Below are positions 7,189 to 10,440 of a stretch of DNA of 33,025 nt, piece by piece. Numbering within the stretch: position 1 is the stretch's first letter; every line of letters begins with the position of its first letter. A model generated the notes under the pieces. The model saw only the letters and a list, made by a program, of their open reading frames with translations. It had not been told where the DNA came from and did not search any database. Source of the stretch: Deltaproteobacteria bacterium (GTDB taxonomy: Bacteria > Desulfobacterota > Desulfobacteria > Desulfobacterales > C00003060); NCBI GenBank assembly GCA_003647275.1, contig QMMN01000027.1, positions 1 through 33,025 of the forward strand, written 5' to 3'. The translations under genes and the position numbers were made by a program.

Positions 7189-8125
7189 CGAGCCCATTAT
7201 CAGGCGCTACCAGGGCAATCCAATCCTTACAGAGAACGATGTGCCGTATCCGGTGGAAACGGTCCACAACGCCGGAGTGGTCAGGCACGAAGGCCAATAC
7301 ATTATGCTTTTCAGGTCGCATCTACGAAACGGGCGTTCGATTATCGGACTGGCCGAAAGCGATGACGGTTTCCGATTTCGGGTACGGCCTGAGCCGTTTA
7401 TAACACCTGCAAAAAATGAACCCTTTGCTGCTTATGAGGAATTTGGCGTTGAAGACCCACGAATTTGCCACATTGACGGCGCCTACCTCATTACCTACAG
7501 CGCCTATTCCAGGCATGGCGTGAGGATCGCCCTTGCGAGAACAAATGACTTCGAAAAAGTCGAGCGTATGGCCCTGATCACACAGGCAGATTATCGCAAT
7601 GCGGTTATCTTTCCCGAGAGATTTGGCGGCCGCTATGCCCGGCTTGACCGACCTCATTCTGAAAGCTCCCCTTGGTCCATCTGGATATCTTTCTCGCCCG
7701 ATCTGATCCACTGGGGCGATTCCAGGGTTGTCATCAAACCGCTGCCCTATCACTGGGACGAAATGAAAATCGGCCCGGGGGCAACCCCGATAAAAACGGA
7801 GAAGGGCTGGCTCAACATCTTCCATGGCGTTTTTAAGACTATGAACGGCGCGGTCTATCGACTGGGAGCCGCCCTTCACGCCCTTGATGACCCTTCCAAG
7901 GTCCTGGGTGTGGCTGATGAATGGATTCTCCAGCCCGAGGACCGTTGGGAAGTGACTGGCTATGTCCACAATGTTGTTTTCACCTGCGGCGCAGTGGCCG
8001 AGGATGACGGGTCGCTCAAGATTTACTGGGGCGGTGCTGACACGGTCATGTGCGTTGGCACGGCCTGGATCGACGACCTGATTGCTTTATGTCTTAACAA
8101 GCCGCGACCGGCTTTGGGCGCGTAG
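7175..8125 (+). CDS. GH130-family glycoside phosphorylase, copy 2
   Basis: This 316-residue GH130 protein is clearly paralogous to the copy at 4874-5833 but divergent. Motifs are GNPILTENDVPYPVETVHN, LFRSHLRNG, VEDPRI with Asp94 at the same position as in copy 1, WISFSPDLIHWGDS, DEMKIGPGATPI, FHGVF, YRLGAALHALDDP, NVVFTCG and YWGGAD. ATG 7175 was chosen because GGAGG at 7164-7168 sits 6 nt before it; ATG 7169 is too close to that site. It overlaps the GT/PMI gene by 14 bp, implying translational coupling. No signal peptide is present. Two different GH130 enzymes in one operon recall the pairing, in the known beta-1,2-mannan systems, of one enzyme for long oligomannans and one for the disaccharide. 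That division of labour is inference here. Its 3' end overlaps the convergent SAM-hydrolase gene by 32 bp. Confidence 0.87.
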   Translation: MAGSNEPIIRRYQGNPILTENDVPYPVETVHNAGVVRHEGQYIMLFRSHLRNGRSIIGLAESDDGFRFRVRPEPFITPAKNEPFAAYEEFGVEDPRICHIDGAYLITYSAYSRHGVRIALARTNDFEKVERMALITQADYRNAVIFPERFGGRYARLDRPHSESSPWSIWISFSPDLIHWGDSRVVIKPLPYHWDEMKIGPGATPIKTEKGWLNIFHGVFKTMNGAVYRLGAALHALDDPSKVLGVADEWILQPEDRWEVTGYVHNVVFTCGAVAEDDGSLKIYWGGADTVMCVGTAWIDDLIALCLNKPRPALGA

Positions 8126-8942
8126 ACGAGGAAGGGAGCTTCACTTTGATGGTCTGGCCGATTCTGGCTTTAAAACAGTTGCTGGCATTTCCCTGGTTCA
8201 AAGAGATCTCAAGGAGGTTGCGGCTTCCAAAGATGGCGACTGGAGAACCGATCTTCACGCTGTCATAAGACTTTGACACCCCTTGAATCTTAGAGCTTCC
8301 CAGTTTGATCACAATTTTTTTTGATGTCTCTTGACCTTTAAAACTTTCAAGGGTTGCCTGATTGATATTTGTGATGAGGTTTCCAAAATGATCAATCGAT
8401 ATGATCGTGCCAACCAGTTCATCTTTGGCAGAGACAAAGGGAGCGGGCACATCGAGTTTGGTAACATCCTCAAGTGCAACCGGTTGTCCAAGGCATAGCA
8501 TATCAACACCCTTTGACAGGTAGGCTGCTGCCGGGGCAAATATATCACGGCCGTGAAACGTATCACTCACAGGCTTCAGAAAATACTTTCGATTGGTTAT
8601 AGCACAGATTTTTTTCGCCTTACCATGCTGTATGACCATGGTTAGGACACCATTGTCGGGTGCCACAAAGAAATGGCCTTCCTGTTCGAGGCAAATCACC
8701 TTTCTCTTTCCGCCAACACCGGGATCGACCACGACCACGTGAATGGAGCCCTTTGGGAAATACCTGAAAGAGGCATTGACCGTGAGGGCGGCCTGTCTAA
8801 CATCGTGTCTGTTAATGTTGTGAGTTATGTCAATGAGATGAACCCTGGGGTTTATAGACAGGATGACCCCCTTCATAACCCCAACGTACTCATCCTGAAG
8901 GCCAAAATCGGTCAGCAAGGTGATAACAGGGATCTTTTTCAT
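8094..8942 (-). CDS. SAM hydroxide adenosyltransferase (DUF62 family)
   Basis: This 282-residue protein begins ITLLTDFGLQDEYVGVMKG, the hallmark of the DUF62/SAM_adeno_trans family, followed by IDITHNINRHDVRQAA, VVVDPGVGG, FVAPDNGVL, FHGRDIFAPAAAYL and the C-terminal-domain signature DHFGNLITNI. Characterised members hydrolyse S-adenosylmethionine to adenosine and methionine using water/hydroxide; relatives are fluorinases and chlorinases. Nothing here indicates halide use. ATG 8942 was chosen because family similarity starts at once; a TTG at 8996 would add 18 atypical residues, and neither has a strong Shine-Dalgarno. The last 32 bp overlap the convergent GH130 gene. Length is near the family norm. 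Confidence 0.87.
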   Translation of the reverse strand: MKKIPVITLLTDFGLQDEYVGVMKGVILSINPRVHLIDITHNINRHDVRQAALTVNASFRYFPKGSIHVVVVDPGVGGKRKVICLEQEGHFFVAPDNGVLTMVIQHGKAKKICAITNRKYFLKPVSDTFHGRDIFAPAAAYLSKGVDMLCLGQPVALEDVTKLDVPAPFVSAKDELVGTIISIDHFGNLITNINQATLESFKGQETSKKIVIKLGSSKIQGVSKSYDSVKIGSPVAIFGSRNLLEISLNQGNASNCFKARIGQTIKVKLPSSSTRPKPVAAC

Positions 8943-9062
8943 ACTAAGATCAATCAAGAGAGATTCTCTTACCCGCGACCCTGCGTCTGTGCGCAATGCC
9001 TGCCCTGTAAGGAGGAACGAATTTACTGGGGTGAGAGGTAAAGATCCGGGCCCAGAGGACCC

Positions 9063-9106
9063 GGCCTTGGCTCAGCCCCCTCGAAGGGGGCCACAGTGAC
9101 CAAGCC
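9063..9106. repeat. Strong nested hairpin in ruvB to SAM-hydrolase gap
   Basis: A perfect 7-bp stem, GCCCCCT (9075-9081) and AGGGGGC (9085-9091) around CGA, sits inside an outer imperfect stem formed by GGCCTTGGCTCA (9063-9074) and TGACCAAGCC (9097-9106). No T-tract follows on either strand, so it is not a typical intrinsic terminator. It may be an mRNA stability or processing structure, or part of the adjacent repeat element. Confidence 0.45.
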
Positions 9107-9110
9107 AAGA

Positions 9111-9240
9111 GTGCCTAAAGTGAACTAAGGTGTCTAAAATGCCTAAAGTTAAGGAGGCGCTTTCAACGCACACAGATTTAATAACAACACAATTCCTCAA
9201 CCTTAGCTCACTTTAGCTCACGTTAGGCACTTTAGCTCAC
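9111..9240. repeat. Two mutually inverted arrays of a GTGNNCTAAA-like unit
   Basis: The left array (9111-9154) reads as about four degenerate 9-11 nt units of GTG..CTAAA on the plus strand. The right array (9201-9240) carries the same kind of unit on the minus strand (GTGAGCTAAA, GTGCCTAAC and so on). A 46-bp spacer separates them, so the RNA could fold into a long imperfect stem. Units vary in sequence and length, spacers are absent and no cas gene is near, so this is not CRISPR. It is probably a dispersed intergenic repeat element. Confidence 0.55.
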
Positions 9241-9442
9241 TTGTTTCATATATGGCAGAGCCATTGAACTCTGACCTGGCCCACAGGACCAGGTCTTCCA
9301 GGTTGAAATAAAATGTCCCATGATGGATGATCGGGCTATTAACCAAATCGCCCCCATCCAGATGTCGCTGGTCTTTTAGTGCTATAAAGATGTCTTCTGA
9401 CGGTTTCCTAAAAATTGAGTGGATAGCTTGTTTGGGCGACAG
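9218..9442 (-). pseudogene. Possible small gene or gene remnant after ruvB, lacking an ATG
   Basis: An open minus-strand frame follows ruvB by about 20 bp and reads in a protein-like way: LSPKQAIHSIFRKPSED, then ALKDQRHLDGGDLVNSP, then FYFNLEDLVLWARSEF. It has no ATG, GTG or TTG near its front: only CTG at 9442 is available before an in-frame TGA further upstream. Its last ten codons (ETSELKCLT and the stop) lie inside the right-hand repeat array, so the natural C terminus appears to have been replaced by repeat sequence. I do not recognise the family. It is either a decayed remnant with lost ends or a CTG-started small protein. The coding impression rests on composition alone. Confidence 0.35.
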
Positions 9443-9462
9443 CCCGTTATATGATCAAACTT

Positions 9463-10440
9463 TTATTTGAAAAGCCCTTGTTGAATCGGCAAACCAAAAT
9501 GTCGGTAGGCTTCTTCTGTGACCTTCCGGCCGGATGAGGTCCGAGTCAGGAACCCGATTTTCAATAAGTATGGCTCCACAACATCCACTAAGGTATCAGA
9601 CTCTTCCTGCAAGGTGGCTGCAATAGCCTCGATTCCCACGGGACCACCTTTGTAGAATTCTATGATGGCTTTCAAAAACTTTCTATCCAGGGCTGTAAGC
9701 CCCTTTTCGTCAACTTCTTCTAGTGCCAATGCATCCTGAACGGTTACCTTTCGGATGGCTCCATCTCCCCGCACCTGTGCAAAATCCCGTACCCGCCTCA
9801 AAAGTCTATTTACGATTCGAGGGGTGCCCCGTGAGCGGCAGGCAATCTCGTAAGCACCATCGTCGTCTATGTTAATGCCCAACAGGGCAGCCGAACGCTT
9901 GGCAATCCGGATCATGTCCTCTTCAGAATAGAAATCAAGGGTCCTGAATATCCCAAACCGCTCACGAAGGGGCGGTGAAAGTGATCCTGCTCGAGTCGTG
10001 GCCCCGACCAGAACAAACTGCTCCAGCCGATAACGGTGACTCCTGGCATGAATCCCTTTGTCAAAGATAAAATCGACCGCAAAGTCTTCCATGGCGGGAT
10101 AGAGAAATTCTTCTACGACCCTTGGAAGACGATGGATCTCATCAATAAACAGGACATGTCCTTTTTCCAGATGGGTCAGTATCCCCAAAAGATCGCCCCC
10201 TTTTTCCAGGGCCGGCCCAGAGGTTACGTTGATATTAACACCCATCTCCTCGGCAATAATGTGAGCAAGGGTTGTCTTTCCTAAACCAGGGGGGCCATGA
10301 AACAGGATGTGATCCAGAGGCTCTTTTCGCTTAAGGGCAGCCTCGATGGCAATCTTGAGGGTCTCCACCACCTTTGCCTGGCCAATATATTCGCCCAGAC
10401 GTTTTGGTCTGAGGTTGATAAATTGCGATGTTTCCTCCAT
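9463..10440 (-). CDS. ruvB: Holliday junction branch migration ATPase RuvB
   Basis: This 325-residue AAA+ motor of the RuvAB branch-migration complex works in homologous recombination and replication fork repair. It has the N-terminal [11 protein letters not shown], Walker [10 protein letters not shown] at residues 49-57, Walker B with DEIH at 100-103, the RuvB signature [17 protein letters not shown], and a C-terminal winged helix ([13 protein letters not shown], then [15 protein letters not shown]). It is full length. It is transcribed after ruvA with a 73-bp gap, last of ruvC-ruvA-ruvB. ATG 10440 gives a normal N terminus. Nothing anomalous was seen. Confidence 0.97.

Follow-up and report, generated by a model that had tools for sequence, protein, structure and literature searches.

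The window analysed here, a stretch of 33,025 nucleotides, probably carries an S23-less satellite, which belongs to a family of small dispersed elements that lie between genes and resemble the intervening sequences (IVSs) of rRNA. In what we consider the best explanation of our data, a full member of this family has a gene for S23, a four-helix-bundle protein, enclosed by two inverted arrays whose short unit (mostly 7 bp, but 9 or 10 bp here) is private to the element. Such a member usually sits in the spacer of two same-direction genes and is read in their direction. Copies with and without the S23 gene share their unit in the genome of the window (G000, 96% complete), where they have spread to sites unrelated to each other, and S23 genes of many phyla are set in the same architecture.

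The window element lies between ruvB and a gene for a SAM hydroxide adenosyltransferase. Its two inverted arrays of four units each (Table 1) are as the sequence-only reading had described them. The left array reads GTGCCTAAA GTGAACTAAG GTGTCTAAA ATGCCTAAA and then GTTAAGGA; on the other strand, the right array reads GTGAGCTAAA GTGCCTAAC GTGAGCTAAA GTGAGCTAAG and then GTTGAGGA. The units come in two lengths, A of 10 bp (GTGARCTAAA) and B of 9 bp (GTGYCTAAA), and the inward end of both arrays is GTTRAGGA. The spacing of 46 bp given earlier holds if GTTAAGGA is counted into the left array; between the unit arrays themselves it is 54 bp. Single GTG..CTAAA units, with one mismatch allowed, occur 22 times in the window, and 21.1 are expected by chance. 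Hence, the special feature of the site is the tandem and inverted layout. The complementary ends of the arrays could form a long stem, as in an IVS. Positions 8900 to 9700 gave no Rfam match up to E = 1.

Table 1. The window element, its parts and its neighbours (positions in the window)
Feature	Position	Strand	Remark
SAM hydroxide adenosyltransferase gene	8094–8996	−	downstream neighbour of the element
275-bp dispersed repeat around both arrays	9038–9312		only copy seen with both ends
Left hairpin, CCGGGCCCAGAGGACCCGG	9046–9064	+	
Left array	9111–9147	+	units of 9-10-9-9 bp (B A B B)
Inner end of left array, GTTAAGGA	9148–9155	+	
54-bp core	9148–9201		no S23 gene; includes GGCGCTTTCAACGC
Inner end of right array, GTTGAGGA	9194–9201	−	
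Right array	9202–9240	−	units of 10-9-10-10 bp (A B A A, outside in)
74-codon open frame	9218–9442	−	no ATG; ends within right array
Right hairpin, CCTGGCCCACAGGACCAGG	9275–9293	+	same orientation as left hairpin
ruvB	9463–10440	−	upstream neighbour in the sense of transcription

Both arrays are held by a 275-bp repeat that is dispersed in the genome. All six left ends of this repeat start with GTAAAGATCC and all six right ends finish at GTTGAAATAA(A), one of them two bases longer; the contexts are different in every case. There are ten more partial copies, most of them truncated by contig ends. Because half-copies at contig ends may be two halves of one, the copy number is at least six in the genome. 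The copies reach past the arrays, so the arrays are not the ends of these copies. The unrelated flanks and identical ends of the other copies support the earlier claim that a repeat element arrived in the spacer. Further support comes from the genus relatives, where a GTG array is missing 3' of ruvB in 14 of 14 genomes (the contigs of two, G002 and G004, end less than 300 bp from ruvB). In 10 of the 14 the adenosyltransferase gene comes after ruvB, and one relative (G005) carries an array pair on the opposite side of ruvB. We also observed that the spacer downstream of ruvB holds inverted pairs of quite different units in G003 (L109, TGGAGTRNT type) and G014 (L112, GATGCTG type), with scores of 21 and 14 against shuffle maxima of 11 and 9. 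One further locus of G000 (L072, contig C101) joins the left flank of the element on contig C42 to the core of the window element; this junction reflects either recombination between arrays or an assembly error. The direct orientation of the two hairpins suggested an element like IS200/605. We rejected this candidate, as G000 has no Y1 transposase and the flanks are not conserved.

The sequence-only reading had proposed a search of the genome for further arrays. G000 contains 31 occurrences of the tandem pattern GTGNNCTAARGTGNNCTAA and none of the reversed control pattern. Across 40 searched genomes the pattern is present in 19, the genome of the window included: 16 of 22 from the genus and 3 of 18 from elsewhere in the order, with the control at zero in every genome. 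In the fetched parts of G000 our parser recovered 33 paired-array elements, and a further 17 arms had no partner, many of them at contig ends. Cores with their arrays recur at unrelated sites, unit numbers vary between copies, and by eye no shortened S23 genes are seen in the cores of S23-less copies. Per-genome counts of arrays and of S23 genes do not run parallel across the genus. At three loci (L032, L039 and L040) heptamer arrays of the GTCATTR and GATTGAC types lie directly outside the GTG..CTAAA arrays, as if elements were nested.

The two ends of these elements are not equivalent. In 30 of the 33 S23-less elements, one array has A as its innermost unit and the opposite array has B (mean 15.7 and maximum 28 in 100,000 shufflings); counted once per distinct pair of core ends, the rule holds in 20 of 23. 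The A arm is the upstream one in 17 of 22 scorable codirectional cases. The elements also have a preferred position. After eight of the 33 were dropped because their flanks were too short or held no frame, 23 of the 25 scored cases lie between codirectional genes and none between convergent ones.

The window element is tied to S23 through the genes that sit between arrays of the same unit. The first instance was a locus of another genome (L165 in G013), where an S23 gene lies inside GTG..CTAAA arrays. G000 itself has three such genes (on contigs C24, C21 and C60), with pair scores of 23, 25 and 28. Loci L264 to L266 match PF05635, the "23S rRNA-intervening sequence protein" or S23 family, at 72–73 bits (cut-off 33.8). 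A profile built from 22 S23 proteins matches the structures 2gsc and 2rld, and the closest named S23 relatives are Desulfobacterota.

The pair score measures inverted similarity between the 250 bp on each side of an S23 gene, with a threshold of at least 13. Arms need not be tandem arrays to score, and a few high-scoring pairs are aperiodic. The threshold is reached at 107 of 145 S23 loci from many phyla (38 fall below it) and in about 0–5% of controls. Of the 28 loci from the genus and order, 22 reach it, compared to 1 of 149 and 0 of 27 control ORFs and 13 of 2000 random windows; among 38 further loci it is 31. A scan of genomes from many phyla, Methanophagales archaea included, gave 54 of 79, with controls from the same loci at 7 of 135 for ORFs and 20 of 840 for windows. 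The genus and order search contributed 66 loci (28 plus 38 fetched), leaving out weak matches, contig-end fragments (e.g., L154 and L163) and others. The scan contributed 80 loci, less L229, whose flank is too short. Near relatives are counted separately, so that not all loci are independent.

Each element has its own unit, common to both arms and different between elements. The arm period is 7 in 60 of 86 arms, and periods of 8, 9 and 10 bp are also present. G outnumbers C in the upstream arm at 72 of 87 loci and is outnumbered at 11. Units resemble each other only where the S23 proteins do. Among 18 pairs of S23 proteins with more than 75% identity, 72% have a unit similarity of at least 0.6; among pairs below 60% identity it is 0–1%. 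High unit similarity is thus confined to S23 identities above about 60–75%. GTG..CTAAA arrays accompany the S23 subtype KRTRKFAVRII... in G000 (three loci), G004, G005, G006, G007, G013 and G023. An exception is L285, one of two S23 loci in G005, with a score of only 7. The pairing in G000 ties the window element to the S23 subtype of its own genome.

S23 elements take the same kind of position as the S23-less ones. At 89 of 95 loci the S23 gene and its upstream neighbour are codirectional (85 of 95 if ORFs open at the edge are treated otherwise), against a baseline of 57 of 77 for neighbouring gene pairs in the same loci. Low-scoring S23 loci show the same bias (30 of 32). The arm starts no more than 15 nt from the upstream stop codon in 51 of 89 cases, compared to a fraction of 0.133 for random starts. 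Homology between the three S23 loci of G000 ends at the arms; it extends about 80 bp past the matched gene on the upstream side and about 65 bp on the downstream side. Loci from different genomes with 69–87% S23 identity (e.g., L137, L185 and L186) likewise share about 50–120 bp upstream and 70–96 bp downstream and then nothing that can be aligned. There are also orthologous sites with long shared flanks (e.g., L275/L276 and L265/L282). Four LSU rRNA motifs are absent from all 145 S23 loci, and the elements therefore appear to lie outside rRNA.

Some arms reach into neighbouring frames. The upstream arm of L266 can encode the end of the frame that precedes it (KVPKVPKVR, stop); its 9-bp units translate as Val-Pro-Lys, and stop codons come with the 10-bp units. 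At L264 the upstream gene seems to terminate within the array (KIESA, stop), and the element may have replaced or extended the C-terminus of that gene. Repeated fragments of S23 genes (profile positions 1–36) at several contig ends of G003 suggest a multi-copy remnant.

The family leads to a prediction about published repeats. Excerpts of PMC4692102 describe GGGAATC heptamers in Xanthomonas, with 70–75 convergent pairs per genome, near stop codons and mostly between codirectional genes. In these three respects they resemble the S23-less elements. If they are S23-less members, then a genome that has such pairs should hold an S23 gene between GGGAATC arrays. Three tandem GGGAATC units occur in one of 369 genomes (G409), where one site is a convergent pair. 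In this single case the prediction holds: the one S23 match of G409 lies between inverted GGGAATC arrays, with a score of 22. The element (L330, 1449–1925) begins right after the stop of a biotin-carrier gene identified with Pfam, and ends right before the start of the next gene. We take the latter to encode biotin carboxylase. The array encodes the start of the S23 frame (MGNRES...), which is apparently shifted after 64 positions. The excerpts of PMC4692102 treat the heptamers as G-quadruplex repeats and draw no S23 link, whereas in G409 they surround an S23 gene.

How might such elements move? We infer that the arrays are what matters for movement, and that S23-less copies move in trans with a role for S23. 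An S23 oligomer could bind a hairpin or cruciform formed by its own arrays and, together with some further enzyme, carry the array element to new spacers; S23-less copies would be moved in trans. A DNA-level process, such as template switching at a hairpin, could keep the two arms alike. The reverse transcriptase family RVT_1 (PF00078), present in 12 of 23 searched genomes, has no match in G000, and we therefore rejected a diversity-generating retroelement, a retron and a reverse transcriptase acting in trans.

A wider proposal, to which we give somewhat less than even credence, is that all these cases belong to one minimal class of mobile element, an S23 gene with private inverted arrays of 7–10 bp units, found in operon spacers across bacteria and archaea. 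S23 would recognise the unit, and hence both would change together. The IVSs of rRNA, several orphan heptamer repeats and the S23 genes in cas loci would be branches of this class, and S23-less pairs its satellites.

One could also argue for non-coding repeats of an ordinary kind: hairpins at the ends of genes would serve to stabilise or process the mRNA of operons and would have spread by recombination, with S23 hitch-hiking. The location between codirectional genes and beside stop codons agrees with this, and so does the folding of the 275-nt strand as RNA (z of −5.6 for the minus and −4.75 for the plus strand). It would leave unexplained why inverted repeats, mostly arrays of private units, accompany 107 of the 145 S23 genes and only a few percent of controls. 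Nor do we see selection for pairing in the sense RNA. Mismatches between arms are of the G-U type in S23-sense RNA in 57 cases versus 75 (p = 0.14), which is no excess and does not support an RNA stem kept by selection. That the arms are alike is thus more readily attributed to DNA-level copying. We consider the non-coding reading unlikely.

It is also rather improbable that the elements are MITE-type miniature transposons of an ordinary DNA transposase, with array ends by chance and S23 as cargo. Sharp ends and many copies would fit, as would the fixed difference between the arms in 30 of 33 elements, since transposons with unlike ends show such differences. However, no target-site duplication is visible in the flanks of the single complete copy (9038–9312). 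Unit and period also vary between elements and S23 is constant, which a single transposase binding site would forbid.

Plain replication slippage, in which short repeats lengthen and hairpins mirror them without any element or any movement, would account for copies that differ in unit number and for a unit common to both arms. It is very improbable, given identical cores with arrays at unrelated sites and S23 genes with arrays in unrelated contexts. From a 74-codon frame ending in the array, the sequence-only reading had a repeat invade or erode a small gene located 3' of ruvB. This can hardly be right, because the frame has no homologue beyond repeat copies, Pfam gives no match and nothing similar follows ruvB in the genus relatives. 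The frame is there, and the right array does supply its last codons and stop. Codons 43/45 to 74 are the repeat itself, and in the fetched loci the frame matches only other repeat copies (next best match E = 1.1). We judge it to be a chance frame that runs into the repeat, not a gene.

The origin, mobility and protein function of rRNA IVSs have been open for more than 25 years (PMC4990558). S23 genes have also been reported in cas loci (18 genes, in excerpts of PMC3936711). Should a widespread spacer element carry S23 genes as its cargo, the IVS question could be tested in ordinary operons, with numerous natural copies, units that match and S23-less satellites that occur naturally. The same explanation would then cover the unexplained heptamer repeats and the S23 genes in cas loci.

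Among known systems, REP and REPIN elements with their RAYTs, and MITEs, are likewise small, multi-copy and inverted, and lie in spacers. Unlike them, the elements described here end in arrays of 9/10-bp units, and their genome has no Y1 transposase; no target duplication is visible at our one complete copy. The Y1 (RAYT) family PF01797 has no match in G000, which speaks against a REP or REPIN identity, and has matches in 5 of 14 control genomes. The STRR of cyanobacteria are tandem heptanucleotide repeats in spacers, like our arrays, and we know of no inverted pairs among them. The TAACTGA repeats of Beggiatoaceae are intergenic heptamers at gene borders as well, and their mobility has been considered (excerpts of PMC4679880). 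They differ in being direct repeats, with only one inverted pair reported in these excerpts, and that paper nowhere uses the term S23. In open-licence papers we did not find the wider S23-array pattern described, though its pieces are. Searches there for the unit sequences gave papers that look unrelated, and those for S23 with repeats or heptamers gave PMC4990558 as the one paper that links them.

The closest comparison is the IVS in the 23S rRNA of Coxiella burnetii. According to excerpts of PMC4990558, it carries an S23 frame, 28-bp inverted ends that form a stem, and two to three tandem GACAGAT heptamers ahead of the frame; it is cut out by RNase III, has been called selfish, and its mobility was proposed earlier. 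Four heptamers also make 28 bp. The IVS is like our S23 elements in its S23 gene, inverted ends and tandem heptamers. It differs in sitting in 23S rRNA, whereas our elements have protein genes on both sides and the 54-bp core of the window copy lacks an S23 frame. Three S23 loci of G000 do have the S23 frame inside, as long-type IVSs do. The rRNA IVSs with an S23 frame may thus be members of the family that landed in rRNA genes, a link that comes from one paper, in excerpts (PMC4990558). Since S23 genes in G000 are flanked by the same kind of array, the rRNA inserts look like one branch of a wider class of elements.
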